64,000 nt of DNA from Roseomonas sp. (lineage in GTDB: Bacteria; Pseudomonadota; Alphaproteobacteria; Acetobacterales; Acetobacteraceae). Within the stretch, counting starts at the first letter, position 1. Every line of letters starts with the position of its first letter. This document shows positions 25,747-54,090 of this stretch, in pieces. The notes below the pieces were generated by a model, which searched no databases, had not been told where the DNA came from, and saw nothing but the letters and a program-made list of their open reading frames with translations. The position numbers were made by a program, and so were the translations under genes. The DNA lies in contig JADCGA010000001.1 of NCBI GenBank assembly GCA_020249265.1, positions 434,001 to 498,000 of the forward strand. The letters are read 5' to 3'.

Positions 25747-25840
25747 AAATACCCAGACTCAGCTCTTGTTATTTGTTCATTTTCCATTAACTCCCGCTTG
25801 AATGCTTCGGCCAAGTGCCGCTCGGTTGCGGGAGAGAGAA

Positions 25841-27655
25841 ATGTCTGGAACTTCAGGTGATGATTCAATTCTGGGTTCTGGTTCGCATAATTATCTGTCC
25901 GGATACTATGGCAATGACACGATCCTGGGCCTTAATGGCCATGATAGTCTTTACGGCGAAAATGGTGCCGATAGCCTGCTTGGCGGCAACGGTAATGATT
26001 TCCTGAGAGGTGACGAGGGTCCGGACACTTATCATGGGGATGCAGGCGCTGACACTTTCGACGCTGCCGATCAGAGGTCCTACGCTACAGATCCGTGGGC
26101 CTACGAGATTACTTCACCTGCCTCCTTGCCAGACCGCATCCTGGATTTTAACCGCGGGCAAGCGGATAAGATATCGCTCTTTGATGGGGTTTACGTAGAC
26201 GAGGACGAAATATACTGGACCTTACGCTGGGTGGGGCCAAGCAGCACGGCAGTCTCGGATTTGGTCCTCGGAATGGCCTTGCCCGGCGGCATTTCAGAAA
26301 CACAAGTTCCGGGCTACTGGGTTTCGAAGATCGGTGGCGATGGCTGGATTGTTCTTGATCTGGATCGGGATGGTGTGCTGGATGCAAATGATGCTGCTGT
26401 ATTTGTTAATACCGCAGATGATGCCGGGCTTTTGGAAAGTGATTTTGTTGTCGGCACCTTCACGGACCCCGTGACAGGCGGACACGAAAGCCTGCCAGGC
26501 ACGAATGCGGCGGACACCATCAACGGTCTTACAGGAAACGACACCATCAATGGCTTCGGCGGAAATGACAGCCTTTTTGGCGGCTTCGGCAATGACCTGA
26601 TCCTTGGCGGTGAAGGCAATGATACAATAGAATCTTATGATAACAATGACACTATGCTCGGCGGCAACGGCGATGACTACATCATTGGCTATGCATCTGA
26701 CTCCATAGACGGGGGTGCGGGCAATGATACCCTATATGGCTGGTGGAGCGACGAGACTATTGCGGCTGGCCCAGGCGATGACTGGATTTATTTCGCTGGC
26801 GGCAATGACAACTTCACTTATATCGCCGGCACTGGCAATGACACGCTTAATGGCGATTATGGTTCCGATACTCTAAATCTTTCTGCTGGAACCTGGATTC
26901 AAGGCGTTGATGGCTTTTGGACCACCTATTCCCAGGGCGGAACACGGCTTTATGTCCAGGGCTGGGAAAGTGTCATCGGGACCGTAACGATTGGCGCTGA
27001 TCAAAGCCTCATGGGTGATGGCGGTAGTAACTCGCTATTCGGCGGCACGGGCAATGACACGCTGTCTGGCTTGGGCGGCGCAGATACGCTGAATGGCGGT
27101 GCTGGTCGGGATTCCCTTTTGGGTGGTGAGGGTAATGATTCGCTGCTTGGTGGCGCCGGCAATGATATTCTGGACGGCGGCACCGGAACCAATACACTGG
27201 ATGGTGGGGCGGGTGACGACACCTATAATGTGAATGGTTGGAATAGCATTTTTGAAGCTAACGATGGGGGCAACGACCTCCTTGTTTCTTCAGTCAATAT
27301 CGTAAATCTATCAAGTAATGTCGAAAACATTCTGTTGACCGGCAGCGCTTCGCTGACAGGCACCGGAAATGCGCTGAATAATAGCATTACGGGCAATTCA
27401 GGGAGTAACTCTCTCTATGGTGCAGACGGTGACGACAGTCTTTTTGGTCTGACTGGCAACGATTATCTCGATGGTGGCAATGGCAATGACCGCCTTCACG
27501 GCGGAGAAGGCGATGACGCATTCCTCGGCGGCGGTGGTAATGATACCCTATTGGGAGGCGGTGGCGCCGATAGCCTCTCGGGTGGCGCAGGGGATGATGT
27601 CATCCTCATCGGCACCACGACGCTCGCGGATATCTACGCCCTGTTCAACCTGTAG
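25841..27655 (+). CDS. RTX calcium-binding repeat protein, likely type I secreted
   Basis: A 604-residue protein built mostly of glycine-aspartate nonapeptide repeats (for example GGNGNDFLRGDEG, GGTGNDTLSGLGGADTLNGG, GGNGNDRLHGGEGDDAF) in three blocks: residues about 5-65, 215-335 and 385-590. There is no N-terminal signal peptide, and the C-terminus ends in hydrophobic LADIYALFNL, as expected for type I secretion. Between the blocks is TDNA-like sequence without a recognised catalytic motif, so an enzymatic role is not evident. ATG at 25841 follows GGGAGAGAG. It is less GC-rich than its neighbours. The only visible type I exporter is 26 kb away. Confidence 0.85.
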   Translation: MSGTSGDDSILGSGSHNYLSGYYGNDTILGLNGHDSLYGENGADSLLGGNGNDFLRGDEGPDTYHGDAGADTFDAADQRSYATDPWAYEITSPASLPDRILDFNRGQADKISLFDGVYVDEDEIYWTLRWVGPSSTAVSDLVLGMALPGGISETQVPGYWVSKIGGDGWIVLDLDRDGVLDANDAAVFVNTADDAGLLESDFVVGTFTDPVTGGHESLPGTNAADTINGLTGNDTINGFGGNDSLFGGFGNDLILGGEGNDTIESYDNNDTMLGGNGDDYIIGYASDSIDGGAGNDTLYGWWSDETIAAGPGDDWIYFAGGNDNFTYIAGTGNDTLNGDYGSDTLNLSAGTWIQGVDGFWTTYSQGGTRLYVQGWESVIGTVTIGADQSLMGDGGSNSLFGGTGNDTLSGLGGADTLNGGAGRDSLLGGEGNDSLLGGAGNDILDGGTGTNTLDGGAGDDTYNVNGWNSIFEANDGGNDLLVSSVNIVNLSSNVENILLTGSASLTGTGNALNNSITGNSGSNSLYGADGDDSLFGLTGNDYLDGGNGNDRLHGGEGDDAFLGGGGNDTLLGGGGADSLSGGAGDDVILIGTTTLADIYALFNL

Positions 27656-30815: not shown

Positions 30816-31271
30816 CTATTCCTCCTCCGGGTGCTTCCAACTCAGGGACCAACCAACATCGCCTGGCATTCCGCCTGGCCAATCAATGATTTGGACTTTC
30901 AGCTGAAAGCCGCGCGGCGCCAATTCGCGTTCATAAAATTCATAGGCGCGCTTGGGAAAGCCGCTGAGCCTTTCGCGCCAGGCAGGATCATGGCTGGTGA
31001 TGGACCGCCCCTGATCGGGCAGCCATTCGGACGGAAAGCGCATCACCAGCGCTTCCTTTTCGCCTGCATCTACGGCGCGGCGCACCAGGGTCGCGATGCG
31101 TTCCAGCGCATCAGGCGCGACTTCGCGCCCCTCAAAAGCTTCGCGCAGCTTGGCCTGTTCTGCGCGCTTCGCTGCGGCTTCGGCTTGTTCGGCAGCCTCC
31201 TCCGCGCGCTTCTTGCCATTCACATAGTCCCAGATGGCCTGAGCGCTGAAGTTCTGGGGCGTCAATGTCAT
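30816..31271 (-). CDS. Conserved hypothetical protein next to PPK2
   Basis: A 151-residue soluble protein of unknown function. Residues about 18-50 form an alanine/glutamate-rich helix likely to be coiled coil (KRAEEAAEQAEAAAKRAEQA). The C-terminal half is a compact domain (WLPDQGRSITSHDPAWRERL, VQIIDWPGGMPGDVGWSLSW). I do not recognise the family. It is the first gene before ppk2 in the same direction, so cotranscription is likely. Confidence 0.65.
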   Translation of the reverse strand: MTLTPQNFSAQAIWDYVNGKKRAEEAAEQAEAAAKRAEQAKLREAFEGREVAPDALERIATLVRRAVDAGEKEALVMRFPSEWLPDQGRSITSHDPAWRERLSGFPKRAYEFYERELAPRGFQLKVQIIDWPGGMPGDVGWSLSWKHPEEE

Positions 31272-31351
31272 GATCGCAGCCTTCCCTGGAATAGGTCCGG
31301 ATGCGCTTTTGCAATACTGCCGCCCAGTAACCCTTGACTTACATCAAGCCA

Positions 31352-32155
31352 TCAACGTCCTTCGAAATGTGGTGCGCGCTTTTCCAGCATGGCATCCACG
31401 GCTTCACGGTGATCCCGCGTGCCATGCGCCAAAGCCTGATAAGCCGCCGACATTTCCAACAACGTCGAAAGCCGCGTGTGCTGGCTTTCACGCAGCAGGC
31501 GCTTGGTCAGCCGCACCGCTTGCGGCGGATTGGCGGCGATTTTCGTCGCGATGGCGCGCGCCGCATCCAAAAGCGCTTCCGGCGCAACAACCTTGGAAAC
31601 CATGCCGCAGGCGAGGGCTTCCGCCGGGCCGATGGTTTCCCCGGTCAGAGACAATTCCAAAGCCTTCGACATGCCAACCACTTTCGGCAGCAAGTAGGCA
31701 CCGCCATCACCAGGCACGATGCCAACTTTCACAAAGCTTTCCGCAAAAAGCGCCTTTTCGCTGGCCACGCGAATATCGCACATCAACGCCAGATCAAGCC
31801 CCGCGCCAATGGCCGGCCCGTTCACCGCTGCGATGGTGGGGATATCCAATTCATACAGCGCGAGCGGAATCATCTGAATGCCACGACGATAGGATTCGCG
31901 AATCTCCGCCCCCGTACCGCCACCAGTAATGCCGGTTTTATCACGCATGCCCTTAAGGTCACCACCCGCACAAAACGCTGAACCGGCACCGGTCACGATC
32001 ACGCAGCGCACGCTATCATCACGCGACAAGCTGCGGCAGGCGGCTTCCACTTCCTCGCACTCCGCACGCGTTGAAATGGCATTGCGTTTTTCAGGACGAT
32101 TGAGCGTGAGGGTAACGATACCGCCATCACGTTCAGTATTCAGAAATGGGGTCAT
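31352..32155 (-). CDS. Enoyl-CoA hydratase/isomerase family protein
   Basis: A 267-residue crotonase-fold protein. The oxyanion-hole segments are visible (GAGSAFCAGGDLKGM and AAVNGPAIGAGLDLALMCDI), and a Glu/Gly block FVKVGIVPGDGGAYLLP marks the active site. It hydrates or isomerises an enoyl-CoA. It is the last gene of a nine-gene operon and overlaps the stop of the preceding dehydrogenase gene by four bases (ATGA). Confidence 0.92.
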   Translation of the reverse strand: MTPFLNTERDGGIVTLTLNRPEKRNAISTRAECEEVEAACRSLSRDDSVRCVIVTGAGSAFCAGGDLKGMRDKTGITGGGTGAEIRESYRRGIQMIPLALYELDIPTIAAVNGPAIGAGLDLALMCDIRVASEKALFAESFVKVGIVPGDGGAYLLPKVVGMSKALELSLTGETIGPAEALACGMVSKVVAPEALLDAARAIATKIAANPPQAVRLTKRLLRESQHTRLSTLLEMSAAYQALAHGTRDHREAVDAMLEKRAPHFEGR

Positions 32156-33162
32156 GGGGTGATTTCCTCCTCACGTGCGGTGATGAAGGGCCAGAGCGCG
32201 CCAGGCAGTGCTTGCGCTTCCTGCCCGATACGCTTGGCCCAAAAAGCTTCGCTGCCGCCTTCTTCGCGCCAGGACCAAAGCCGGCGCGTGAAATGATGCA
32301 GCTGATGTTCTTCCGTAATGCCCATGGCGGCGAAGACCTGGTGCGCTATGGCGGCACCGCGCGTGGCGGCTTCACCCACCGTGATCTTGGCGCAGCCAAT
32401 CTCAAACACCGCAGCAGCAAGCCCGCGCCGATCCACCGCACGGGCGGCGGCGGCAGCGGCAACCGAAGCGGCGGAAGTTTCCGCGGCGAAAACCGCCAAT
32501 TGCTGCTGCACGGCCTGGAAGCGCCCAATGGGGCGGCCAAATTGCTTGCGCGTATTGGCGTGATCCACCGCCAGCGCCAGCGCCGCCTGCATGGCACCCG
32601 CAATCTGGCCGGCACGCATCAGCGCGGTGCAAAGAAGCGCGGCTTCCGCGCCCCAGCCATTGGGCAGCACCGCCTCGGCCACCGGCGCGCCGATGATGCG
32701 CGCGCGGTCTCGCGCTTCATGTGCGATATTGTCGCCGACTTCCCAAGCAAGCGCAGCCGTCGGGTACAGCGCAATGCGCGCGCCATCCAGCAGTGCGACA
32801 TGGCCGGCATGGCGCCCCCAGGCAATGGCGCCCTTGCCTGCGCCAAAGCTGATCACGCCTTCCGGTGGCGTAATGCCAGCAGCCGAAAGCAGCGCATTGG
32901 CGAAAATGCCTTCGGCCAAGGGCACCGACGCGGCGTGGCGGCCAAGCACTTCCATCAGCGGCGCCACATCACTGAAGCCAAGGCCAACGCCGCCCGCTGC
33001 TTCCGGCACCAGCGCGCCATTCAAGCCAAGCGTCGCCAACGCATCCCAAGTGGCTGCCGGCCAGTTGCCCGCTTCCAGGCTGCGCAAGGTGGAGACATCC
33101 GCCGCATCCGCCAGCGCGCGATCAACCTGTTCGGCGAGTTCCGTTGCGATTTCGCTTGCCAT
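32152..33162 (-). CDS. Acyl-CoA dehydrogenase, short subunit
   Basis: A 336-residue, divergent acyl-CoA dehydrogenase. The FAD-site segment HANTRKQFGRPIGRFQAVQQ near residue 215 and the C-terminal IAHQVFAAMGITEEHQLHHF are recognisable, but the middle beta-domain is short and the usual C-terminal YEGT motif is missing. This fits the smaller chain of an alpha2-beta2 dehydrogenase partnered with the 379-residue protein encoded 1 nt upstream, as known from steroid side-chain enzymes. Substrate is unknown. Confidence 0.85.
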   Translation of the reverse strand: MASEIATELAEQVDRALADAADVSTLRSLEAGNWPAATWDALATLGLNGALVPEAAGGVGLGFSDVAPLMEVLGRHAASVPLAEGIFANALLSAAGITPPEGVISFGAGKGAIAWGRHAGHVALLDGARIALYPTAALAWEVGDNIAHEARDRARIIGAPVAEAVLPNGWGAEAALLCTALMRAGQIAGAMQAALALAVDHANTRKQFGRPIGRFQAVQQQLAVFAAETSAASVAAAAAARAVDRRGLAAAVFEIGCAKITVGEAATRGAAIAHQVFAAMGITEEHQLHHFTRRLWSWREEGGSEAFWAKRIGQEAQALPGALWPFITAREEEITP

Positions 33163-33163
33163 A

Positions 33164-34303
33164 TCAGCGCAGCCCCAATTCGCGTGCGATAATGCCGCGC
33201 ATAATCTCCCGCGTACCGCCGCGCAGAGAGAATGTCGGTACGATCTGCGTCAGATAGGCATGCATGCGGCGCATATCTTCCGGCATGTCTTCGGTGGTGA
33301 TCAGATCACGCACCACATTGGGCAGCGCCTGTTCAAAATCATTGCCCAAATCCTTGACCAATGCCGCTTGCCGTACCGGGTCCTGCCCATCTTCCAACAT
33401 GCCAGCGACCGCCACCGACATATTGCGCAAAGCCCAAAGCCGCGCGACCTGCCGGCCAAGCGCAGGCGCCGCAGCGCTATCCCGCTTCAGCGTTGTCATC
33501 GCTGCTTCCAGCAAAGGATGCGAGGAAAGATACCGATCCGGCCCGCTGCGTTCAAACGCCAATTCGCTCGTGGCCTGCGCCCAGCCAGCGCCTTCCTGCC
33601 CCACCAGCGCATCTTCCGGCAGCATCACATCATCGAAGGTGATTTCGTTAAAACCCTTTTCGCCCACTAGGTCACGAATTGGGCGAATATGCACGCCAGG
33701 CGCGCGCAAATCCACCAGCACTTGCGAAAGCCCGATATGCCGCGCGCCACCTTCTGGCGCGGGCGAGGTACGCACCAGCGCAATCATCCAATCACAAAGA
33801 TGCCCGAAGGTGGTCCAAATCTTGCGCCCATTCAGCTTCCAGCCGCCATCCACCTTTTCAGCTTTGGTACGGAGCGATGCCAGATCACTCCCCGAATCAG
33901 GTTCCGACAAGCCGATGCAAAACGCATATTCGCCGCTGGCGATGCGCGGTAGGAAATGGCGCTTCTGGTCTTCCGTGCCGAGCCTGAGGATCAACGGACC
34001 GGATTGCCGATCCCCGATCCAATGCGCGCCCACCGGCGCCCCGGCGGCGAGCATTTCTTCCAGCACGATATTGCGTTCCAGAAAGCTACGTTCCGCGCCG
34101 CCATATTCACGCGGCCAGCACATGCCAATCCAACCCTTGGCGCCAACCGCGCGGGTGAAATCGCGATCAAACCCCATCCAGGATCGGGCGCGGATTTCCG
34201 GCGTAAAATTTTCCGCGTGTTCCGCGAGAAACGCACGTACTTCAGCACGCAGCGCCGCCGCGCCATCGGGCGCATCACGCAAATCGAAACGAAGACCAGC
34301 CAT
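33164..34303 (-). CDS. Acyl-CoA dehydrogenase, long subunit
   Basis: A 379-residue dehydrogenase. The FAD/substrate block FCIGLSEPDSGSDLASLRTK is present, and NGRKIWTTFGHLCDW follows. The C-terminus reads FSLRGGTREIMRGIIAREL; the MCAD-type catalytic Glu position holds Gly (RGGT). A Glu in LAFERSGPDRYL could act as base, as in isovaleryl-CoA dehydrogenase. It is followed after 1 nt by the short dehydrogenase gene, so the two probably form one enzyme. Confidence 0.9.
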   Translation of the reverse strand: MAGLRFDLRDAPDGAAALRAEVRAFLAEHAENFTPEIRARSWMGFDRDFTRAVGAKGWIGMCWPREYGGAERSFLERNIVLEEMLAAGAPVGAHWIGDRQSGPLILRLGTEDQKRHFLPRIASGEYAFCIGLSEPDSGSDLASLRTKAEKVDGGWKLNGRKIWTTFGHLCDWMIALVRTSPAPEGGARHIGLSQVLVDLRAPGVHIRPIRDLVGEKGFNEITFDDVMLPEDALVGQEGAGWAQATSELAFERSGPDRYLSSHPLLEAAMTTLKRDSAAAPALGRQVARLWALRNMSVAVAGMLEDGQDPVRQAALVKDLGNDFEQALPNVVRDLITTEDMPEDMRRMHAYLTQIVPTFSLRGGTREIMRGIIARELGLR

Positions 34304-34315
34304 GGTGTAGCCTCC

Positions 34316-35539
34316 TCACAAAACGCCGGCGGCGCGCGCCGCGGCGATTTCTTCTGCTGTCATATCCGCAAACTCGCGCAGTACCGCATCCGTATGCTCA
34401 CCAGGTGCGGGGATGCCGTAGCGATAAGTCACAGGCGTCGCGGTAAGATGTAGGGGTGATGCCGGCACTCGTACGTGCCCGCCCGCGTGATGCGGCACTT
34501 CCACAATCAGGCCGCGTGCCTTGGTATGCGGATCGACTTCCACATCAGCCGCGGTATTGATGGGGCCAGAGGTAATCTTGGCATCCTCCAGCACCGCCAA
34601 CCATTCGGCCCGTGGCCTGTGGCGCAGCACATCATGCATCATGCCCAGCAGCAAATCGCGATTGGCGGCGCGGTCTCGTGCGCGGCGGAAGCGCTCATCT
34701 TCCGCCCATTCAGGACGGCCCAGCGCGGCGGCAAGCCTGATAAATTCTCGATCATTCAAAACGCCAATGACGAATTTCGCATCCGAGCCCTGAAACACGC
34801 CATAAGGCACTGCCACCACCGCATCATTGCCGGTGCGCTGCATCAACTTGCCGGCATTCAACCATGAAGTCATCGGCGCCTGCATCAGTGACACCATGGT
34901 CTCATAGAGTGAGACCTCGCAATACTGGCCTTCACCAGTCTGATCGCGATGCCTGAGTGCGGCCAGGATTGAAACCGTTGCGGCAAAGCCCGTGAACATA
35001 TCCGCCACCGGCACACCAACACGCTGCGGGCCGCCGCCTGGCTTGCCATCGGCCTCGCCAGTCACTTCCATCAGCCCGGCCATCGCTTGCGCGACAAAAT
35101 CATAGCCTGAGCGATGCGCGTAAGGGCCATCCTGCCCGAAACCTGTTACCGAACAATAAACCAAGCGCGGATTGATGGCGCGCAAATCCTCATAACCCAA
35201 ACCATAACGCGCCAGCGTGCCGGTGCGGAAATTCTCGATCAGCACATCCGCCTTCGCCACGATGCGCTTCAGGATCGCTGCACCTTCCGCTTGCGTGAAA
35301 TCCAAGCTGAGCGAGCGCTTGTTGCGATTGAGCGAGGTGAAATAGGTACTGTCATCACTCCCCGGCACAAAGGGTGGACCCAAAGCGCGCAAATCATCGC
35401 CATTGCCTTGGCGTTCCAGCTTGACGATCTCCGCCCCCAAATCACCCAGCATTTGCGCGCAAAGCGGGCCGGCTACCACGCGGGTCAGGTCAATCACGCG
35501 AAGCCCGGTCAGCGCGCCGGGTTTTGGGAGTTCTGTCAT
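34316..35539 (-). CDS. Family III CoA-transferase (CaiB/Frc-like)
   Basis: A 407-residue family III CoA-transferase. Landmarks are LRVIDLTRVVAGPLCAQMLG, DLGAEIVKLER, NRNKRSLSLDF, the catalytic-Asp region RSGYDFVAQAMAGLM and GPINTAADVEVDPHTKARG. It moves CoA between carboxylic acids. Together with the CoA ligase just upstream it gives the operon two ways to activate or exchange an acid. Acceptor and donor are not deducible. Confidence 0.9.
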   Translation of the reverse strand: MTELPKPGALTGLRVIDLTRVVAGPLCAQMLGDLGAEIVKLERQGNGDDLRALGPPFVPGSDDSTYFTSLNRNKRSLSLDFTQAEGAAILKRIVAKADVLIENFRTGTLARYGLGYEDLRAINPRLVYCSVTGFGQDGPYAHRSGYDFVAQAMAGLMEVTGEADGKPGGGPQRVGVPVADMFTGFAATVSILAALRHRDQTGEGQYCEVSLYETMVSLMQAPMTSWLNAGKLMQRTGNDAVVAVPYGVFQGSDAKFVIGVLNDREFIRLAAALGRPEWAEDERFRRARDRAANRDLLLGMMHDVLRHRPRAEWLAVLEDAKITSGPINTAADVEVDPHTKARGLIVEVPHHAGGHVRVPASPLHLTATPVTYRYGIPAPGEHTDAVLREFADMTAEEIAAARAAGVL

Positions 35540-35545
35540 GCTGCC

Positions 35546-37156
35546 TCAGCCACCGCGCACCCGGGCGCGCAGTTCGAATTTCTGGATTTTGCCGGTCGCG
35601 GTTTTCGGTAGCGGGCCGAAGGTGATGTGGCGCGGCACCTTGAAGCCGGCCAGATTGGCGCGACAGAAAGCGAGGATGGCATCACGGTTCCCTGCTGCAC
35701 CTGGCTTCAGGGTGATGAAGGCATGCGGCACTTCGCCCCATTTTTCATCCGGATGCGCCACCACTGCCGCTTCCATCACATCCGGGTGGCGATAGAGCGT
35801 TTCTTCCACTTCCAGGCTGCTGATGTTTTCACCGCCGGAGATCACAATATCCTTGGCGCGGTCCTTGACTTCGATATAGCCATCGGGGTGCAGCACGCCC
35901 AAATCGCCGGTGCGGAACCAGCCATCCACGAACACCGCTTCATTGGCCCTGGGGTTGCGTAGATAACCCTTCATTACCGTATTGCCGCGAATGGCAATCT
36001 CACCAATTGTCGCGCCATCGGCGGGCACAGCCGCACCCGTTTCGGTATTGATCACCGTCGCTTCTTCCATCGTCGGCAAAGCCACACCTTGCCGCGCCAT
36101 GAAGGCGGCTTTCTCTGGCAGAGGTAGATCATGCAAGCCCGGCTGCCAGGCGCAAAGCAGTGATGGGCCATAGCATTCCGTCAGGCCATAAAGATGCGTG
36201 ACGTCGAAGCCCAGATTTTCCATCGCCGCGATCACCGGTGAAGGCGGCGCCGCGCCGCCCGTGGCAATCCCCACGTGATGCGCAAAGCGCCGGCGCTGGT
36301 CTTCCGGTGCATGGATCAGCATGGTCAACACCACGGGCGCGGCGCAAAGATGCGTCACACCATGTTCATCAATCAGCGCGAAAATCCGCGCCGGTTCCAC
36401 GCGCCTGAGGCACACATGCGTTCCGCCTTGCAGCGTAACGGCCCAGGTATAAGTCCAGCCATTGCAATGAAACATCGGTAGCGTCCAAAGATAGACGCTT
36501 TGCGCAATCAAGCCGAAGGACAGTGCATTGCCGCAGGCATTGAGGTAAGCCCCGCGATGATGCGCCACCACACCCTTGGGATCGCCTGTGGTACCCGATG
36601 TATAGGAAAGCGAAATCGCAGCCCATTCATCAGCGGGGGGCGCGACCGGAAAGCCAGGATCACCGCCAGCGATGAAATCCTCATAACCCGTCGCGTCAAT
36701 GGCGGCACCGCCAGGGCCTTCGGGATCGTCAATGATAATCACACGCGGCGGGTTCTCCGCGCCTTCCAGCGCGGCATTCACCAACGCGGCAAATTCGCGG
36801 TCCAGCAACAGGATCTTCGCGCCTGAATGGCCCAGAATGAAACGCACCGTCGCCGCATCCAGCCGCGTATTGATCGGGCAAAGCACGGCATGCGCCATGG
36901 GTACGGCGTTATGCGCTTCCAGCATTTCAGGAATATTCGGCAATAGCGCCGCCACCACATCACCTGGCGCTATGCCGGCCTGACGCAACGCCGAGGCCAA
37001 GCGCCGGCTGCGTTCCAGAAACTGCGCATAGGTGATGCGCCGCGCACCATGAATAATCGCGATGCGCTTGCCCCAGACATGCGCCGCGCGCGGCAGAAAG
37101 GAAACCGGCGATAGGGCCACATGATTGGCGGCTGTTTTCGGCAAATCATCCTGCAT
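35546..37156 (-). CDS. Acyl-CoA synthetase (AMP-forming), LvaE-like by context
   Basis: A 536-residue adenylate-forming ligase. The P-loop LSYTSGTTGDPKGVVAHHRG, the YGLTECYGP motif, GWFRTGDLGVLHPDGYIEVK, the hinge DIVISGGENISSLEVE and the lysine motif KTATGKIQKFELR are all intact. It activates a carboxylic acid to its CoA thioester. It follows the DUF6285 gene by 3 nt, the same neighbour set as lvaE in the Pseudomonas levulinate operon; chain length of the substrate is unknown. Confidence 0.9.
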   Translation of the reverse strand: MQDDLPKTAANHVALSPVSFLPRAAHVWGKRIAIIHGARRITYAQFLERSRRLASALRQAGIAPGDVVAALLPNIPEMLEAHNAVPMAHAVLCPINTRLDAATVRFILGHSGAKILLLDREFAALVNAALEGAENPPRVIIIDDPEGPGGAAIDATGYEDFIAGGDPGFPVAPPADEWAAISLSYTSGTTGDPKGVVAHHRGAYLNACGNALSFGLIAQSVYLWTLPMFHCNGWTYTWAVTLQGGTHVCLRRVEPARIFALIDEHGVTHLCAAPVVLTMLIHAPEDQRRRFAHHVGIATGGAAPPSPVIAAMENLGFDVTHLYGLTECYGPSLLCAWQPGLHDLPLPEKAAFMARQGVALPTMEEATVINTETGAAVPADGATIGEIAIRGNTVMKGYLRNPRANEAVFVDGWFRTGDLGVLHPDGYIEVKDRAKDIVISGGENISSLEVEETLYRHPDVMEAAVVAHPDEKWGEVPHAFITLKPGAAGNRDAILAFCRANLAGFKVPRHITFGPLPKTATGKIQKFELRARVRGG

Positions 37157-37159
37157 ATG

Positions 37160-37519
37160 TCAGCCCTTTCCCAAAACCCGAGGCGCGCTAATGGCACAAC
37201 GCAGCCGCGCGGCTTGGCGGAGCACCGCCGCCGCTTCCGCATGATGCGCACTGCCGGGATCAAAAACGCCAGCACGAATCGCGGCAGCGAAGGCAGGGTC
37301 CGGCGCGGCGGCATCGCCCGTCAGGCGCTGCATCGTGGCGCGCATTTCTGCCACCCAGGCATCATTCTGTGCGGCTTCGCGCGCGGCAATCGCCATGGCA
37401 TTGGCGATCATGCGCAGGGTGAAGGCATCCGTGCCGGAAAGCTTGGGCAGAATTTCGGTCAGCAGCGCATCACGCGCGGTTGCCAAAAGGTTCGGGCCTT
37501 CCGGAGCTTCACGCTGCAT
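37160..37519 (-). CDS. DUF6285 small protein, LvaB-like by context
   Basis: A 119-residue helical protein recognised as DUF6285 (LLATARDALLTEILPKLSG, FTLRMIANAMAIAAREAAQN). Members are found beside APH-type kinases. In the Pseudomonas lva operon the small LvaB is needed for LvaA kinase activity, and I infer the same role here. The gene overlaps the kinase stop by 11 bases and precedes the ligase by 3 nt. Confidence 0.75.
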   Translation of the reverse strand: MQREAPEGPNLLATARDALLTEILPKLSGTDAFTLRMIANAMAIAAREAAQNDAWVAEMRATMQRLTGDAAAPDPAFAAAIRAGVFDPGSAHHAEAAAVLRQAARLRCAISAPRVLGKG

Positions 37520-38516
37520 GGGGCACGCCTGTCATATTCAGGACTTCCCATTCAAGCTCCGGCACAATATGGCCCGTCAGCGCTAATTCCAGGCTTGGCT
37601 CCTTGCCGGAAAGGTGGCGTTCTGCCTGATCAATCGCAATCACAGCCCAGCGGATATGCGCGGCCAATTCCCACCAAATGACGCGCACCGCATCCACCGC
37701 GCGCCCCGCTTCCGCCGCATAGCCGGCATAGAAGGCATCCCGCGTGCCAATACCGCCCGCTTCATGCGCGCTGCCAAAGCGCCAGCATTTGGCGCAGAAC
37801 CAGCCAAGGTCAGCATGTGGGTCTCCCCAGGCCGCGAATTCCCAATCCAGTACCGCCGCCACGCCATCATCCGCCAACATCAGATTGCCGGTGCGAAAAT
37901 CATTATGGTTCAGCACGGGCGGCAAAGGCGGCGGGGCTGAGCGTTCCAAATGGCGCAAGCCCCATTCCAAAACCGGGCGCGGCAGCGCTTGGCGGTCCAG
38001 CGCGGCACGCTGCTCCGTAACAAAGGCAAGGCAGGCATCGGTGGGCGGCGTGCCGAGAAAGGCCAAGTCCGCACGCGGCGGCGTGATGCGATGAATACGC
38101 GCCAATTCGCGCCCCAAAGCGGCCACCGCAGCATCACGCCCACCGCAGAGCGTATCGCTTTTCACCACGCGATGCCCGGCGGCAATGCCCTGCACGCGCC
38201 GCATGATGAAGAACGGCGCGCCAAGCACAGCGGTATCCTCGCACACGTGAAGCGGTTCGGGCACCGTCACGCCCTCAGCAAAGGCAGCCCTCAAAAGCGC
38301 GAATTCGGCGGAACGGGGCAGAGAAACCGCCAAGGTCGCCGCATTATCTGTGCGCAGCACCCAGGCTTCATCTCGTCCCGCCAGCACAACATCCAAAGCC
38401 CAATTCTGCTGAATGGCGCCGCCGGAAAGCAAAGACAACGCGCCAAGCGTCAGATCAGCCGCGCCGGTTGCCCCGCGCAGCCAATCGGTCAGTTTTGCGC
38501 GCCGCGCCTCATCCAT
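37509..38516 (-). CDS. APH-fold phosphotransferase, LvaA-like (acyl-CoA hydroxyl kinase)
   Basis: A 335-residue APH-fold kinase of the ACAD10/11 N-domain type. Visible are the nucleotide loop LSGGAIQQNWALDV, the catalytic loop LNHNDFRTGNLML and the Mg site LDWEFAAWGDPHADLGWF. Proteins of this kind phosphorylate the 4-hydroxyl of 4-hydroxyacyl-CoA, after which an ACAD11-like partner removes the phosphate. ATG at 38516 (MDEARRAKL) is chosen; longer frames overlap the upstream dehydrogenase gene extensively. Function is inferred from the gene neighbourhood. Confidence 0.82.
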   Translation of the reverse strand: MDEARRAKLTDWLRGATGAADLTLGALSLLSGGAIQQNWALDVVLAGRDEAWVLRTDNAATLAVSLPRSAEFALLRAAFAEGVTVPEPLHVCEDTAVLGAPFFIMRRVQGIAAGHRVVKSDTLCGGRDAAVAALGRELARIHRITPPRADLAFLGTPPTDACLAFVTEQRAALDRQALPRPVLEWGLRHLERSAPPPLPPVLNHNDFRTGNLMLADDGVAAVLDWEFAAWGDPHADLGWFCAKCWRFGSAHEAGGIGTRDAFYAGYAAEAGRAVDAVRVIWWELAAHIRWAVIAIDQAERHLSGKEPSLELALTGHIVPELEWEVLNMTGVPHAA

Positions 38517-39720
38517 GCTTGGGCGGACCCCAGGCGAAGAAGCCAGAACCCTCAGCCCGCAGCACATTGGCCAGCACCATGCGATGGACTTCGGATGCGC
38601 CATCCACCAGCCGTGCCTGACGGGCGTAGCGATACATCCATTCAATCACCGTATCCTTGGAATAGCCGCGCGCGCCCAGCAATTGCAGCGCCGTATCCAC
38701 GGATTTTTGCAAAGCATCCGCGACCACAATCTTCGCCATGGAAACTTCCTTCCGCGCGAAGCCGCCCTGGTCCAGAATCCAGGCCGCCTTCATGGTCAGC
38801 AGCCGGCCGATTTCAATTTCCATCGCCGCCTGGCCCACCAGGCCTTGCACGCTTTCGCGGTCAATCAGCTTCATGCCGAAGGAATCGCGCTGCGCAATGC
38901 GTTCCATGGCGATTTCCAAGGCACGCCGAGACAATCCCAGCCAGCGCATGCAATGGGTCAGCCGCGCCACGCCCAGGCGCATTTGCGTCAGCTTCAGCCC
39001 ATCGCCCTCATTCATTAAAAGGTGCTCATTCGGAACTTCCAGCCCATCGAATTCCAATTCGCAATGCCCGCCATGTTCTTCCGGCCCCATGATCGGAATG
39101 CGGCGCACAATCTTCCACCCCGGTTGATCGGCGCTGAACAGAAAGGCGGAAAGCCCCTTGCGCGGATCATCCGATGTGCGCGCGATGATGATGAAGATCT
39201 TCGCATTGCCCGCGCCGGTAATGAACCATTTGCGCCCGGTGATACGCCAGCGATCATTGCCGATGCGTTCCGCCTTGGTATAGGTCAGGTTCGGGTCAGA
39301 ACCGCAGCCATCCGGTTCGGTCATGGCGAAGGCGGATTGCACATCGCCATCCACAATCGGCTGCAACCAACGCGGCTTCATCGCTTCCGGCAAAATGCGA
39401 TCCAGGATCATCATATTGCCATCATCCGGTGCGGCGCTATTGAACACCACGGGACCGAAGATGGAGCGGTTCATTTCCTCATAACAGGCGGCCATGCCAA
39501 TGCGTGGCAATTCCTGCCCGCCCAAGCGCTTTGGCATTTGTAGCGCCCAAAGCCCTTCTGCCTTCGCGGCCTTGCGCATTTCCGACAGCACATGGGGCGC
39601 GATGTTTTCATGCTCATCAAAATTTGCGCGGTCGGATTCCAGAGGAATCAGCTTTTCATCCACAAAGCGCCGAATGCGCCGGCGCATATCATCAATTTCG
39701 GGGGGCAGGGTGAATTCCAT
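38509..39720 (-). CDS. ACAD11-like acyl-CoA dehydrogenase, LvaC-like
   Basis: A 403-residue acyl-CoA dehydrogenase. The ACAD10/11 type segment FNSAAPDDGNMMILDRI is present, followed by the flavin block SAFAMTEPDGCGSDPN. The C-terminus reads RQARLVDGASEVHRM, so the usual catalytic Glu position (YEGT) is Asp, a change I recall for the ACAD10/11 branch. It partners the kinase encoded next in the operon (8-bp overlap). In the lva pathway LvaC converts the phosphorylated acyl-CoA to enoyl/3-hydroxyacyl-CoA. Confidence 0.88.
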   Translation of the reverse strand: MEFTLPPEIDDMRRRIRRFVDEKLIPLESDRANFDEHENIAPHVLSEMRKAAKAEGLWALQMPKRLGGQELPRIGMAACYEEMNRSIFGPVVFNSAAPDDGNMMILDRILPEAMKPRWLQPIVDGDVQSAFAMTEPDGCGSDPNLTYTKAERIGNDRWRITGRKWFITGAGNAKIFIIIARTSDDPRKGLSAFLFSADQPGWKIVRRIPIMGPEEHGGHCELEFDGLEVPNEHLLMNEGDGLKLTQMRLGVARLTHCMRWLGLSRRALEIAMERIAQRDSFGMKLIDRESVQGLVGQAAMEIEIGRLLTMKAAWILDQGGFARKEVSMAKIVVADALQKSVDTALQLLGARGYSKDTVIEWMYRYARQARLVDGASEVHRMVLANVLRAEGSGFFAWGPPKHG

Positions 39721-39731
39721 GGCGGCAAAAC

Positions 39732-40499
39732 CTAAAGCGGGTTGATTGAATGGCCACCATCCACTGTCACCACCGCGCCGGTCATATGCGCCCCGGCGGC
39801 GGAAGCGAGCAGCAATAGCGGCCCGGTAAGGTCCTCGGCAGCGCCCAGCCGGCGCTGCGGGATGCGCTTGATCATCGCCTGCCCGGAATCGGAGGCGAAG
39901 TAATCGCGGTTGATATCAGTGGCGATATAGCCAGGCGCAATCGCATTCACGCGAATGCCATGGCGCGCCCATTCCACCGCCAAATGCCGCGTCATGTGCA
40001 AAAGCCCTGCCTTGGCGGCGGTATAGCCGACCACGCCCGGAATGATACGCTCCCCAAGGACCGAGGCGATATTCACCACCACACCGGGGGTTCTCGCCGC
40101 CACCAGGCGCTTGGCGGCTTCCTGCGCCACCAGAAAACAGCCGCGCAGATTCACATCCAGCACCGAATCCCAATCCTCAGCGCTTTGTTGCAAAGCGGGC
40201 TTGGTCACGGCAATGCCGGCATTGTTGAGCAGAATATCGCAGGGCGCGCCGAAGGCCGCTTCCGCGGCGGCAAAGGCAAGGGGGATGGTCTCAGGCGCGG
40301 TCACATCCAAAGGCACGGAAACCGCCCGGGCGCCCAATTCCGTCGCCAGAGCAGCAGTTGCTGCTTCCCGCCGCGCGGCCAGGGCCACTGAGGCACCCGC
40401 GCCATGCAGCACGCGGGCGAAATGCGAGCCCAAAACGCCGGACGCACCAGTCACCAGCGCGACGCGCCCCTGCAACGAGAACATTCCAGCAATATCCAC
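39732..40499 (-). CDS. Short-chain dehydrogenase/reductase (first gene of acyl-CoA operon), LvaD-like by context
   Basis: A 255-residue classical SDR with the NAD(P) loop VALVTGASGVLGSHFARVL, the NNAGIAV motif, and the catalytic Tyr-Lys pair in YTAAKAGLLHM. GTG at 40499 has a GGGAGG ribosome site 7-8 nt away; an internal ATG at 40484 is the alternative. As first gene of the operon, with the kinase/DUF6285/ACAD set downstream, it may interconvert a 4-oxo and 4-hydroxy acyl group. It is divergent from another SDR gene. Confidence 0.88.
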   Translation of the reverse strand: MDIAGMFSLQGRVALVTGASGVLGSHFARVLHGAGASVALAARREAATAALATELGARAVSVPLDVTAPETIPLAFAAAEAAFGAPCDILLNNAGIAVTKPALQQSAEDWDSVLDVNLRGCFLVAQEAAKRLVAARTPGVVVNIASVLGERIIPGVVGYTAAKAGLLHMTRHLAVEWARHGIRVNAIAPGYIATDINRDYFASDSGQAMIKRIPQRRLGAAEDLTGPLLLLASAAGAHMTGAVVTVDGGHSINPL

Positions 40500-40614
40500 T
40501 GCGCCACCTCCCTCTTACGCCAAGGGGTGCCACCGGGCGGGCGCCGGGGCAAGCCCTCAAGACAGAGCCCCCGTTTCATTCTAGCCTGCCCTTCTGGATA
40601 TAGGGGGTTGAACC

Positions 40615-41364
40615 ATGTCAGGCGAAGCAAAGGTGGCGCTGGTGACGGGCGCGCAGCAGGGCATCGGCGCCGCCGCCGCGCGGGCTTTGGCGGCTTCGGG
40701 CCATGATGTCGCGATCAATTGGCTGGATGATCAGGCCCAGGCGGAGGCCGTGGCGGCCGAAATCCGCGCAACCGGACGGCGCGCGGCGCTGATCCAAGGC
40801 GATGTCGGCACCGCCGCTGGCGCTGCTGCCCTGGTAGAACAGACCATCGCCGCGCTTGGGCGCATTGATGTGCTGGTGAATAATGCCGGCATCTTCCCGC
40901 GCGTTGAATTCCTGGACATGACGGAAGCGGAATGGGACCGCGTTATTGCCGTGAACCTGAAGGGCAGCGCCTTTTGCGCCCAGGCTGCGGCGCGCGCCAT
41001 GGTGGCGGCTGGGATCAAGGGGGTGATCATCAACCTCTCCTCCTCCTCGGTCCGGGGGGCGCCGCTTGGGGTGCATTACACGGCCACCAAGGCCGGCATT
41101 ATCGGCATGACACGGTCCATGGCGCTGTCGCTCGCCCCATATGATATTCGCGTGAACGCCATCGCGCCCGGCCTGACGGATACCGCGCAGCCGCGCTACG
41201 GCAATAGCGAAGCGGAGCTTGCCGTGATGGCCCAGCAAATCCCGCTGGGGCGGATGGGGCGGCCCGAGGAAATCGCCGGGTTGATGGCCTATCTTGCGTC
41301 TGATCAAGCCGCTTGGATCACGGGTCAGGTTTATCACATCAATGGGGGCAATTACCTCGCCTGA
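40615..41364 (+). CDS. Short-chain dehydrogenase/reductase (3-oxoacyl-reductase-like)
   Basis: A 249-residue SDR. The glycine-rich loop is VALVTGAQQGIGAAAARALA; VLVNNAGIFPRVEF and YTATKAGIIGMTRSMALSLA (Tyr, Lys) form the active site, and APGLTDTAQPRYG follows. It is closest in style to FabG-like reductases. ATG at 40615 has an AGGGGG ribosome site. It is divergent from the lva-like operon (115 bp apart), so shared regulation is possible, and is followed closely by a cytochrome gene. Confidence 0.88.
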   Translation: MSGEAKVALVTGAQQGIGAAAARALAASGHDVAINWLDDQAQAEAVAAEIRATGRRAALIQGDVGTAAGAAALVEQTIAALGRIDVLVNNAGIFPRVEFLDMTEAEWDRVIAVNLKGSAFCAQAAARAMVAAGIKGVIINLSSSSVRGAPLGVHYTATKAGIIGMTRSMALSLAPYDIRVNAIAPGLTDTAQPRYGNSEAELAVMAQQIPLGRMGRPEEIAGLMAYLASDQAAWITGQVYHINGGNYLA

Positions 41365-42738: not shown

Positions 42739-42799
42739 GTCTGGCGCCCCGGCAAAACCAAGTCTAGCATCCCCGGCCTTGAGCAAGGGGGAAATAATC

Positions 42800-43858
42800 T
42801 TGTCCACAGTCAATAAGCCATTCCGCGTCGCCTATCTGGAACGCGTGCCGCATCCAAGCTTTCTGGAAACCGCCACCGCCGATCCCGCTTTGGAAGTGGT
42901 GCGGCTTTCTTTGGAAAATGGGGAGGAAGCCGCGATCGCCGAACTCGCCACCTGTGATGGCTATTATGTGCGCGCTTCGCGCGATGAATTGCCCAAGGCG
43001 CTTCACGTGCATGATGCGCTGTTGCAGCGCCTGCCCAATCTGCTGATGGTGGCATCCCAAGGCGCCGGCTATGACACGATTGACCCAAATTCCTGCACCA
43101 AGGCGGGCGTGTTGCTGGTGAACCAGGCCGGCGGCAATGCCGAAGCCGTGGCGGAACACGCCGTTGGCATGATGCTGGCGTTGATCAAGAAAATGCCGCA
43201 GACCCATGCCGCCATGCGCGCCGGGGAAGCCAAGCGTCGCGAAGTGTTTATGGGTAATAATCTGCTCGGCAAGACCGTTGGCGTGATTGGCATTGGCAAT
43301 GTGGGGTCGCGCACCACCGCCATTGTGAAGGCCGCCTTCAATTGTCGCGTGCTGGCTTATGACCCTTATGTGGATGCCGAAGCCGTCGCCAAGCGTGGTG
43401 CGGAAAAGGTGGAATTGGCCGAATTGCTGGCGCAATCTGATATTGTCAGCGTGCATTGCCCGCTGACCCCCGAAAGCCGCGCTATTGTGGATGCCAAGGC
43501 GCTGGCCGGCATGAAGAAGGGCGCCATTCTGGTCACGACGGCGCGCGGTTCCATTCATGATGAATCCGATGTGCTGGCCGCGCTGGAATCCGGGCAATTG
43601 GCCTCCGCCGGTTTGGATGTTTGGGAACAGGAACCGCCGCCCAAGGAGCACCCGCTTTTGTGGCATCCGGCAGTGATCTGCACGCAGCACACGGCGGGGG
43701 TCACCCATGAAAGCCGTTCCATGATCACGCGCATCGCAGCGGAAGCCTTTTCCGCCTGCGCCGCGGGGAAGATGCCGCCGCGCATCATCAATCCGGAAGT
43801 GAAGGGCCGTTTCGCGGAGCGCTACGCCGCAGCGCGTGGCCGCGCCATTACGGATTGA
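42800..43858 (+). CDS. D-isomer-specific 2-hydroxyacid dehydrogenase
   Basis: A 352-residue NAD-dependent dehydrogenase of the phosphoglycerate dehydrogenase family. NAD loop VGVIGIGNVGSRTTAIVK near residue 155; catalytic Arg in VTTARGSIH, Glu in LDVWEQEPP and His in CTQHTAGVTHES. It interconverts a 2-hydroxy and a 2-keto acid; serine biosynthesis is not implied. TTG at 42800 follows the strong site AAGGGGGA by 7 nt and is preferred over the TTG at 42779. It starts a plus-strand run of six genes. Confidence 0.88.
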   Translation: MSTVNKPFRVAYLERVPHPSFLETATADPALEVVRLSLENGEEAAIAELATCDGYYVRASRDELPKALHVHDALLQRLPNLLMVASQGAGYDTIDPNSCTKAGVLLVNQAGGNAEAVAEHAVGMMLALIKKMPQTHAAMRAGEAKRREVFMGNNLLGKTVGVIGIGNVGSRTTAIVKAAFNCRVLAYDPYVDAEAVAKRGAEKVELAELLAQSDIVSVHCPLTPESRAIVDAKALAGMKKGAILVTTARGSIHDESDVLAALESGQLASAGLDVWEQEPPPKEHPLLWHPAVICTQHTAGVTHESRSMITRIAAEAFSACAAGKMPPRIINPEVKGRFAERYAAARGRAITD

Positions 43859-43879
43859 AGCCGCGTTTGGGCTTTTTCC

Positions 43880-45043
43880 GTGAGTAGCTCGGCTTCCAAG
43901 GCCAGGGTGGTAACGGTGCTTGGCACCACCCAAACCCTGGCCTGGGGGTCTTCCTATTATCTGCCGGCGATTCTGGCCGCACCAATCGCCGAGGATCTGG
44001 GCCTGTCGCGTGTCCTGGTCTTTGGTGTGTTTTCGGGTTCGCTGCTGCTGACCGCGCTGCTGGGGCCGGCGGCGGGCCGCGCGATTGATCAGCGCGGTGG
44101 GCGCGATGTGCTGGCCATTTCGAACGTGATTTTCATACTGGGCCTGCTGATCATGGCCTTTGCCAATGGCCTGCCGATGCTGATTCTAAGCTGGTTCATC
44201 ATTGGCATTGCCATGGCGATGGGGCTTTATGATGCGGCCTTTGCGACGCTGGCTGGGCTTTACGGCAAGGATGCGCGCAACAGCATCACCGGCATTACGC
44301 TGTTTGCGGGCTTTGCCAGCACGGTCGGCTGGCCGCTTTCCGCGCTGATGGAAGCGGAATGGGGCTGGCGCGGCGCCTGCCTTGGCTGGGTTGCTTTGCA
44401 TCTATTCATCTGCCTGCCGCTCAATCGTTTTCTGATTCCGAAGGCACCGCCACCACCACCCAAGGAAGCCGCGCGGCCGCTATCCGCCGAGGAAACGCGC
44501 GATCGCAAGCGGGATATGATCCTGCTCGCTTTCGTGCTGGCAACAGCGAGTTTCAGTTCCACCGCGCTTGCCGCGCATTTGCCGGGCTTGCTGCAATCCG
44601 CAGGAACAACGCTTACCGCCGCCATTGCGGCTGGCGCTTTGATGGGGCCAGCGCAGGTCGCTGCGCGCGTGGTGGAATTCACCATGATGCGCAAGATGAA
44701 CCCGCTTTTCTCCGCACGCATCGCTGCCGGTGCGCATCCTGTGGCCGTGGTGGTGCTGATGGCGCTTGGCGCGCCCTTCGCTGCGCTTTTTGTGATTATC
44801 CATGGCGCGGGGAATGGCTTGCTCACCATCACGCGCGGCACGCTGCCGCTCGCGCTATTCGGGCCGGTTGGCTATGGGCAGCGCCAGGGCTTCATCACCG
44901 CGCCGGCGCGCGCTTCGCAGGCTTTTGCGCCTTTGCTTTTCGGGCTGCTGCTGGATGATTTCGGCGCGGCTTCACTATGGCTAACCGCGCTGCTTGGCGT
45001 TGCAGCCGTCGCGGCGCTTTTCATGATGCGTGTTCGGCAATGA
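43880..45043 (+). CDS. MFS transporter
   Basis: A 387-residue major facilitator with about twelve membrane helices. The loop after helix 2 reads GRAIDQRGGRDVL, a typical MFS motif A variant. It may take up the substrate of the operon. The start is GTG at 43880, 21 nt after the dehydrogenase stop. The substrate cannot be deduced. Confidence 0.85.
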   Translation: MSSSASKARVVTVLGTTQTLAWGSSYYLPAILAAPIAEDLGLSRVLVFGVFSGSLLLTALLGPAAGRAIDQRGGRDVLAISNVIFILGLLIMAFANGLPMLILSWFIIGIAMAMGLYDAAFATLAGLYGKDARNSITGITLFAGFASTVGWPLSALMEAEWGWRGACLGWVALHLFICLPLNRFLIPKAPPPPPKEAARPLSAEETRDRKRDMILLAFVLATASFSSTALAAHLPGLLQSAGTTLTAAIAAGALMGPAQVAARVVEFTMMRKMNPLFSARIAAGAHPVAVVVLMALGAPFAALFVIIHGAGNGLLTITRGTLPLALFGPVGYGQRQGFITAPARASQAFAPLLFGLLLDDFGAASLWLTALLGVAAVAALFMMRVRQ

Positions 45044-52750: not shown

Positions 52751-54079
52751 CTAGAATTCCCGGATGGATTTGGCGAAGCGATCAGCCAAGGGCCGCGCGA
52801 GGTAGGAAGCAAAGGAACGCTCCCCACGCCGGATCAGGACTTCGGCATGCATGCCGGGCTGAAGGCGCAACTGCTCATGCCGGATCAATTCTTCCGGGGC
52901 GAAGCCGACCCGCGCGACAAAGTAAGGCATGCCCGTGCGCTGATCTGTCATGCGGTCCGGTGCAATGCGTTCGACCGATCCTTCAAGGATGGGCGTTGTG
53001 CGCGCCGCAGCGTGGGAAAGCCGGATGGAAGCGGGCATGCCAATCCGCACCGTGTCCACATCCACGGGCGTGATCTGCACTTCCACCACCAGCCTTTCTT
53101 CCTGCGGCACGATGGAGGCAACCTGCGAACCGGGCGCAATCACCCCGCCACGGGTCGAATAGCGCAAATCCATGACCATGCCGGCTTCGGGCGCATCTAT
53201 GGTCAGGCGCATCAATTGGTCATTGGCGCTGATTTCACGTTCGCGCAGTTCCAGAAGCCGGCCCTGCAATTCGCGCAATTCCTTGGCGATTTCCTCCTGC
53301 CGGGACCGCACCAATTGCGCGCGCTGCATCTCAGCCTCGCCGACTGCCTGCTGGGTGCGCGCGACATTCTCGATCGCCTCCCCACGTTCACCGATCAGCC
53401 GGGCTTCCTCGCGTTGCAGGGAAAGCAGGCGTGGCAGGCGTTCGAGGCCCATGCGCACCAGCCCTTCTACGCCCATGATTTCCTGGCGCACCAGGGCAAG
53501 CTGACGGTCATTGGAATCAATGCGGACATTCAGCCCGTCAATCTGCTTTTGCAATTGCAACGCGCGTTGGGTCAGGATTTCGATTTGCCCCTGCAGAGAA
53601 GCGCGACGCGCGATGAATTCATCGCTTTGAACGGATAGGATCTCGGCAACCTTGGGTTCGGTGCGGCGCGCGACAAGTTCGGGCGGGAACAAGGGCGCGG
53701 GCGCTTCCTCTCGTTCTGCGGTCAATACCGCGATGCGCGCGCGCACGCGGTCCGATTCGTCCAGCACCACATTCAGCCCGGCGCGCACCCGCGTGTCATC
53801 AAGGCGAATGAGCGGCTGGCCGACGGTGACAATGGCGCCATCACGCACCAGCACCTCGCCAACAATCCCGCCTTCCAGATGCTGCACATTGCGGCGATTG
53901 CCTTCCACCATCAGCGTGCCGGGGGCCACCACGGCGCTATCAATCATGGCAAAGGCGCCCCAGCCGAAAACGCCGCCCACACAAAACAGGATGGTGAAAA
54001 GCGCAAAACGCAAGGGCCGCCAGATCGGCACCTTTGACGCTTCGGCACCCAAACCAGGCTTGGCGTTGTTCCGGTCCAT
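52751..54079 (-). CDS. HlyD-family type I secretion adaptor
   Basis: A 442-residue membrane fusion protein. One membrane helix (FALFTILFCVGGVFGWGAF), a lipoyl-type strand (VQHLEGGIVGEVLVRDGAIV), a long coiled-coil region (residues about 150-270) and the RLSHAAARTTPILEGSVE C-terminal domain define it. It links the ABC transporter to an outer-membrane TolC channel, which is not in this window. It follows the ABC gene by 11 nt. Confidence 0.93.
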   Translation of the reverse strand: MDRNNAKPGLGAEASKVPIWRPLRFALFTILFCVGGVFGWGAFAMIDSAVVAPGTLMVEGNRRNVQHLEGGIVGEVLVRDGAIVTVGQPLIRLDDTRVRAGLNVVLDESDRVRARIAVLTAEREEAPAPLFPPELVARRTEPKVAEILSVQSDEFIARRASLQGQIEILTQRALQLQKQIDGLNVRIDSNDRQLALVRQEIMGVEGLVRMGLERLPRLLSLQREEARLIGERGEAIENVARTQQAVGEAEMQRAQLVRSRQEEIAKELRELQGRLLELREREISANDQLMRLTIDAPEAGMVMDLRYSTRGGVIAPGSQVASIVPQEERLVVEVQITPVDVDTVRIGMPASIRLSHAAARTTPILEGSVERIAPDRMTDQRTGMPYFVARVGFAPEELIRHEQLRLQPGMHAEVLIRRGERSFASYLARPLADRFAKSIREF

Positions 54080-54090
54080 GGCCCTTCCCC

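Follow-up and report, generated by a model that had tools for sequence, protein, structure and literature searches.

A predicted two-part operon of Roseomonas joins lva-type 4-phosphoacyl-CoA genes to an acid-activation and beta-oxidation module

Introduction

The lva genes of Pseudomonas and the mammalian proteins ACAD10 and ACAD11 are the closest described relatives of the system reported here, a nine-gene operon in a 64,000-nt stretch of Roseomonas sp. DNA (GenBank assembly GCA_020249265.1, contig JADCGA010000001.1, positions 434,001 to 498,000; hereafter the window). In P. putida, growth on levulinate requires LvaA, LvaB and LvaC, and LvaB interacts with LvaA, as reported in PMC6692424; the same paper reports lvaABCD homologues in Alpha-, Beta- and Gammaproteobacteria, and the operon type is therefore already known. 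For ACAD11, PMC12440821, in which the mouse protein was purified, ties R626, H634 and R637 to the 4-phospho group and D753 to catalysis, and ties R86, R176 and D220 of the kinase to kinase function.

Compared with Pseudomonas lvaABCDEFG (locus L035, and P. putida KT2440 as described in PMC6692424), the window holds five types in common, but in the order D-C-A-B-E instead of A-B-C-D-E, with a dehydrogenase of a different clade and four added genes. The operons of Azospirillum (L034) and Paroceanicella (L032) have the same D-C-A-B order as the window (short-chain dehydrogenase/reductase (SDR), dehydrogenase, kinase, DUF6285 protein), whereas no CoA-transferase or acyl-CoA dehydrogenase (ACAD) pair is annotated in their 19-kb stretches; in Azospirillum, genes for a histidine phosphatase and a TetR regulator are also part of the operon. 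Mammalian ACAD10/ACAD11 share the predicted kinase and dehydrogenase chemistry, the HCMR region and the catalytic aspartate with the window, but are single polypeptides, and the ACAD11 kinase belongs to another clade and has R86 and R176. Finally, D-C-kinase-E operons of Achromobacter, Bordetella and Pigmentiphaga (L161, L162, L167 and L173) resemble the window in their SDR and HCMR dehydrogenase, the latter falling in the window's clade for L161, L162 and L173, but their kinase is of the ACAD11 type and DUF6285 is missing from the locus. DUF6285 is also absent from the genomes of L161, L162 and L173 (the L167 genome was not searched).

Results

Nine open reading frames (ORFs) of this Neoroseomonas-like alphaproteobacterium lie tightly packed on the minus strand from 40499 to 31352 (Table 1), and we consider it highly probable that they form a two-part catabolic operon, in which lva-type steps are joined to acid activation and beta-oxidation. 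Every junction either overlaps or spans less than 15 nt: SDR/ACAD +11, ACAD/kinase −8 (computed with the kinase start set at 38516), kinase/DUF6285 −11, DUF6285/ligase +3, ligase/CoA-transferase +6, CoA-transferase/ACAD +12, ACAD/ACAD +1 and ACAD/hydratase −4. At least one Pfam family exceeded its curated cut-off for 9/9 proteins. Coordinates, translations and Pfam thus bear out the nine minus-strand genes, with overlaps or gaps under 15 nt, described in a first-pass annotation of this DNA. No sigma-70-like site was found in a scan of 31000-40700, and no minus-strand terminator-like site in the intergenic gaps of the operon, two minus-strand matches falling within genes; the terminator scan says little because its matches were fewer than in shuffles. 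Same-genus DNA matches span the presumed promoter region. Among the relatives that a search with the dehydrogenase listed, the nearest named ones belong to Roseomonas/Neoroseomonas; they include metagenome-assembled genomes as well as other genomes, and the isolate names of some point to lakes.

Table 1. Features of the operon region, in window coordinates.
Feature	Coordinates	Strand	Evidence
SDR, LvaD-like 4-oxoacyl-CoA reductase (P0004)	39732..40499	-	GTG start; adh_short_C2 3.4e-55
LvaC/ACAD10-11-type acyl-CoA dehydrogenase (P0003), predicted 4-phosphoacyl-CoA lyase	38509..39720	-	best PDB matches human and mouse ACAD11
APH-fold kinase, LvaA-type (P0001)	37509..38516	-	APH 8.2e-36; HNDFRTGN and LDWE motifs present
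DUF6285 protein, LvaB-type kinase subunit (P0002)	37160..37519	-	PF19802 1.1e-16
AMP-forming acyl-CoA ligase, LvaE-like (P0005)	35546..37156	-	NF006020 828 bits, over cut-off
Class III CoA-transferase (P0006)	34316..35539	-	PF02515 6.6e-128
Acyl-CoA dehydrogenase chain with presumed glutamate base (P0007), presumed alpha chain	33164..34303	-	best PDB match 4x28_A
Shorter acyl-CoA dehydrogenase chain (P0008), presumed beta chain	32152..33162	-	RKQFG..IG.FQ stretch; matches 6wy8_A
Enoyl-CoA hydratase/isomerase (P0009)	31352..32155	-	NF006699 417 bits, over cut-off
Intergenic region, operon / divergent SDR gene; presumed promoter region	40500..40614		flanking genes

The best reference for the first five genes is L035 on the Pseudomonas plasmid p12939-PER, which holds a PrpR-type regulator, a kinase, an annotated LvaB, a dehydrogenase, an SDR, a ligase, a DUF485 protein and a cation acetate symporter. 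We call this locus lva from its annotation and from the P. putida gene content given in PMC6692424, P. putida being compared by description only. The annotated LvaB is a PF19802 protein, the same Pfam family as the DUF6285 protein of the window, and identities to L035 are 45.9% (kinase), 37.7% (DUF6285), 41.4% (dehydrogenase), 50.4% (SDR) and 60.1% (ligase). All five LvaA-E types are matched, among them the LvaD-type SDR and LvaE-type ligase by which we recognise an lva operon. By homology, the first five genes are the LvaD, LvaC, LvaA, LvaB and LvaE set, as had been claimed at first pass.

Phylogenies agree with this assignment. The window kinase falls within 35 rows labelled lva (67-row tree; support 92/96) that include the Pseudomonas lva kinases, with ACAD11-type kinases on a separate side (100/100) and a third set (95/92) made up of DUF6285-linked kinases, mostly without an HCMR dehydrogenase. 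The labels have three exceptions: the Thermus lva kinase lies outside the 35, L070 lies inside with no HCMR dehydrogenase recognised nearby, and L039, in the third set, has an HCMR dehydrogenase of the ACAD11 clade within 4 kb. In the DUF6285 tree (37 rows), 24/25 lva rows, including the window and the annotated L035 LvaB, stand on one side of a 95/86 branch, the exception again being Thermus. The first-pass annotation would have been refuted by a kinase and DUF6285 protein outside the LvaA and LvaB clades; both group with their annotated Pseudomonas counterparts, and the assignment is supported. All 104 LvaA-type kinases with letters at these columns retain the kinase Asp, Asn and DWE Asp (2 more are gapped). 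An aminoglycoside-resistance function for the kinase was rejected: the likeness is confined to the APH fold, NCBIfam resistance models score far under their cut-offs, and the kinase sits in the lva clade.

In the dehydrogenase tree (47 rows), the window is one of 30 rows in a clade supported at 96/99; a separate clade of 5 rows (98/96) holds Pseudomonas LvaC together with Azoarcus, Massilia and Thermus, and a third (100/100) holds human ACAD11 and three bacterial rows. The window protein is 67.6-68.3% identical to Paroceanicella and Azospirillum homologues. It has both the HCMR region and the catalytic Asp of LvaC-type enzymes, and the equivalents of ACAD11 R626, R631, H634, R637, D753 and H597 are kept in 132/132 HCMR-bearing homologues, the window included; these homologues were selected on HCMR, which accounts for the conservation of H634 and R637, while that of R626 and D753 is independent of the selection.

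The remaining four genes encode the CoA-transferase, which scored 372 bits against a succinate--glutarate CoA-transferase model (under the cut-off of 750), two further ACAD chains and a hydratase. P0007 has the Pfam N and M domains over cut-off and the C-terminal domain just under, and its Glu251 aligns with position 247 of 4x28_A and position 254 of 1ivh (isovaleryl-CoA dehydrogenase), which we take to be the catalytic bases. P0008 has no middle domain by Pfam and carries the stretch RKQFGRPIGRFQ. With the base on one chain, the flavin-site motif on the other and the chains complementary, the pair is sensibly read as a predicted two-chain (alpha2-beta2) acyl-CoA dehydrogenase. A literature search on links between two-chain dehydrogenases and a kinase of this kind listed nothing relevant.

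We mapped loci of the window's genus and near relatives by tblastn; our other gene maps may drop a gene under a better-scoring, longer overlapping frame. Within the sub-clade whose kinases are at least 89% identical to that of the window, 12/12 loci with enough contig (the window, L078, L104, L105, L107, L108, L109, L231, L232, L234, L235 and L236) run from ligase to CoA-transferase to first ACAD with window-like spacing; L230, L233, L237 and L106, where the contig ends before the CoA-transferase, are left out of the 12. All nine genes are whole in 9/12, with L109, L231 and L236 cut by a contig end. The linkage comparison outside this sub-clade leaves out the genus members G006, G015, G016, G021 and G031, which carry the second ACAD chain.

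Several observations weigh against the two-part reading. Four genomes (G004, G010, G028 and G032) have the CoA-transferase, ACAD pair and hydratase away from their lva genes (at L199, L201, L202 and L198), at a distance of ~139 kb in G010 and on another contig in G004, G028 and G032, and in G020 the CoA-transferase alone is by lva, the ACAD pair and hydratase being elsewhere (L088, L200). By sequence, the window dehydrogenase is LvaC-like yet outside the LvaC clade proper (41% to LvaC), and the first-pass description of it as an ACAD11-like LvaC stands for the ACAD10/11/LvaC motif set but not for the clade. Scans of the nine operon proteins and of ten neighbours, but not of the remaining genome, found no LvaR (sigma-54 activator) and no LvaF/LvaG transport type (DUF485, ActP), and no regulator gene lies directly beside the operon.

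The separated loci in G004, G010, G028, G032 and G020 would fit two unrelated operons that stand side by side in one sub-clade and are co-transcribed with no shared substrate, lva serving 4-oxo acids and the rest ordinary activation and beta-oxidation; we regard this as possible, though we lean against it. In another genus, L204 and L205 also keep ligase, CoA-transferase, ACAD pair and hydratase side by side where no lva genes were recognised, and neither genome is among those listed with a DUF6285 match. (The idea that the second ACAD chain and the hydratase are fused at these two loci was rejected, as the frames are separate and overlap.) The constant adjacency in the sub-clade argues the other way, as does looser adjacency at L080 in G003 (~1.9 kb beyond the ligase), L203 in G011 (~0.9 kb), L119 (where the ligase does not intervene) and L124 of Plastoroseomonas (~2.5 kb beyond the kinase, with intervening genes), so that adjacency has been kept or regained outside the sub-clade too. 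On these comparisons, the CoA-transferase, ACAD pair and hydratase are a module of their own, adjoining lva in some lineages.

We think it unlikely that the operon is devoted to a single defined acid, larger or branched and derived from a terpenoid or steroid, on whose bulky acyl-CoA the two-chain dehydrogenase acts before the lva-type steps. The chains match 4x28_A and 6wy8/6wy9, which belong to heterotetrameric steroid-type dehydrogenases, close gene packing is kept in the sub-clade, and the Massilia plasmid locus L037 also has lva genes amid several further paired ACAD genes; no terpenoid- or steroid-pathway gene, however, was recognised among the ten neighbours scanned (part of the window), and such a substrate is weakly evidenced because the module stands apart from lva in several genus members. 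Its occurrence without recognised lva genes in another genus speaks the same way, so that the added genes by themselves do not define a bulky substrate, and the first-pass suggestion that they imply a larger or branched one is not supported. Least probable is a move of dehydrogenase and kinase to another reaction, for example on the 4-hydroxy group of a polyketide-like or amino-acid-derived acyl-CoA, which the separate ACAD clade, at 41% to LvaC, would permit, but against which stand the retained ACAD11 residues tied to 4-phosphoacyl-CoA turnover and a ligase 60% identical to that of an lva operon. We retain the two-part catabolic operon as the preferred reading.

Next, we surveyed kinase type against DUF6285. 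Many loci were found through DUF6285 and some genomes are duplicates, so the counts do not equal independent events. All 134 loci with a DUF6285 match pair it with an LvaA-type kinase, 115 within 500 nt and 19 in one frame. The 80 named loci found via the dehydrogenase alone comprise 56 with an LvaA-type kinase and DUF6285, 3 with an LvaA-type kinase and no DUF6285 (L121, L147 and L166, where the locus ends at about that point), 4 with an ACAD11-type kinase and no DUF6285, and 17 with neither nearby, at least 3 of which are cut by contig ends. For the 132 HCMR-dehydrogenase loci (duplicates included), the corresponding figures are 103, 3, 4 and 18, with 4 weak-match loci set aside.

DUF6285 occurs in 0/4 operons with an ACAD11-type kinase, and is absent from 13/13 tested genomes that have the dehydrogenase but lack LvaA/LvaB. 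An ACAD11-type kinase is present in all 13; ten of these have no operon kinase, and in 8/10 it lies within ~4 kb of another HCMR dehydrogenase. Its presence alone is not telling, because matches (E up to 1e-30) occur in 158/397 sampled genomes. Nor is exclusion strict: DUF6285 has an ACAD11-type kinase at a distance of 3.1 kb in L042 and 1.9 kb in L048, although each DUF6285 there also adjoins its own LvaA-type kinase.

The two kinase types differ at the ACAD11 arginines. The R86 position is Arg in 0/105 LvaA-type kinases, 4/4 ACAD11-type operon kinases and 3/3 PDB kinases; the R176 position, where the alignment is less certain, is Arg in 20/105 LvaA-type kinases. Both are Arg in 16/16 ACAD11-type kinases from the 13 genomes (three being operon kinases already counted). 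In the window kinase, Ala replaces R86 and, in the less certain column, Leu replaces R176, so that it does not show the CoA-binding arginines of ACAD10/11. DUF6285 has conserved arginines of its own (104 rows): R47 in 98%, R107 in 89% and R82 in 86%; a joint alignment of free-standing DUF6285 proteins and kinase-DUF6285 fusions was discarded, as it placed the former partly in the kinase region. A PDB sequence search with the window DUF6285 protein gave a best E of 0.29, and a literature search on DUF6285 found nothing.

The survey also brought out variant arrangements. In L033 (Azoarcus), L034 (Azospirillum) and L036 (Thermus), the next gene after DUF6285 encodes a histidine phosphatase, in operons predicted to form a phosphorylated intermediate. 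Kinase-DUF6285 fusions occur in several lineages of HCMR-dehydrogenase operons (L139 of Roseococcus, L140, L156, L159, L185, L066, L069 and L076). In L038, L042, L049, L056, L065, L068 and L071, an LvaA-like kinase and DUF6285, in one frame in the last four, lie near a canonical glutamate-base dehydrogenase (ITEG.EEIQ), and no LvaC-type enzyme was recognised beside them; these loci are perhaps a second kinase-DUF6285 system. Eight HCMR-dehydrogenase operons (L128, L130, L135, L136, L138, L144, L177 and L178), from Belnapia, Paeniroseomonas, Craurococcus, Paracraurococcus, Crenalkalicoccus and Salinisphaera, have no kinase or DUF6285 recognised nearby.

Upstream of the operon, window positions 42779-45043 hold a 2-hydroxyacid dehydrogenase and an MFS transporter, the latter a possible transport partner. 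By eye, genes resembling this pair lie near lva in L080 and L124, and an MFS-like gene also in L088 and L119. Elsewhere in the window, a protein at 25802-27655 has repeats that look RTX-like by eye, and two ORFs at 52751-55878 resemble a type I secretion adaptor and an ABC transporter.

Discussion

Very probably, by analogy with the described systems, the operon serves the breakdown of 4-oxo or 4-hydroxy acids through a phosphate that is first attached and then removed, and the predicted 4-phosphoacyl-CoA chemistry is well supported by sequence. Families, clades, active-site residues and operon conservation are read directly from the sequences; the reactions of the first part (the LvaD, LvaC, LvaA and LvaB types) are transferred from work on the Pseudomonas and mammalian proteins. 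The SDR would reduce 4-oxoacyl-CoA to 4-hydroxyacyl-CoA, the LvaA-LvaB kinase would phosphorylate the 4-hydroxyl, and the LvaC-type dehydrogenase would eliminate the phosphate to give 2-enoyl-CoA. For the second part, where we infer the reactions from family alone, the ligase and class III CoA-transferase would activate acids to CoA thioesters, and the two-chain dehydrogenase and hydratase would carry out ordinary beta-oxidation steps before or after the first part, the hydratase converting 2-enoyl-CoA to 3-hydroxyacyl-CoA. The substrate is a matter of guesswork: levulinate is a candidate, and so are longer 4-oxo/4-hydroxy acids or gamma-lactones, and 6-oxo acids that are first shortened to the 4-oxo stage.

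The absence of R86 from LvaA-type kinases, taken with the conserved DUF6285 arginines, leads to the hypothesis that LvaB takes over CoA recognition, and suggests that LvaB would supply the substrate recognition that ACAD10/11 kinases carry themselves. We offer, tentatively and with slightly more doubt than belief, a joint proposal: that bacteria have two interchangeable kinds of 4-hydroxyacyl-CoA kinase, of which the ACAD10/11 type would be self-sufficient and hold CoA with its own arginines, while the LvaA type, lacking R86, would depend on LvaB, whose R47, R82 and R107 would recognise CoA; and that window-type dehydrogenase operons carry either kind or none, in which case a kinase encoded at another place in the genome may serve them. 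Contrary to a need for LvaB, PMC6692424 reports that the cluster of P. citronellolis LA18T lacks lvaB and has a gene for a histidine phosphatase beside the lvaA homologue. A missed lvaB ORF in LA18T is possible, if unproven, since the Azospirillum and Thermus loci carry both a histidine phosphatase and DUF6285.

No proposal linking LvaB to kinase type was found in the literature searched, and the kinase/LvaB pairing is the part that specialists might find new. It would offer a testable answer to the question of why LvaA of P. putida depends on LvaB, a 12-kDa protein, when the mammalian ACAD10/11 kinases are active in purified form without such a partner. More broadly, the phosphate-based 4-hydroxy acid route of Pseudomonas lva and mammalian ACAD10/11 would gain a version that is conserved in Alphaproteobacteria and whose dehydrogenase forms a separate clade.

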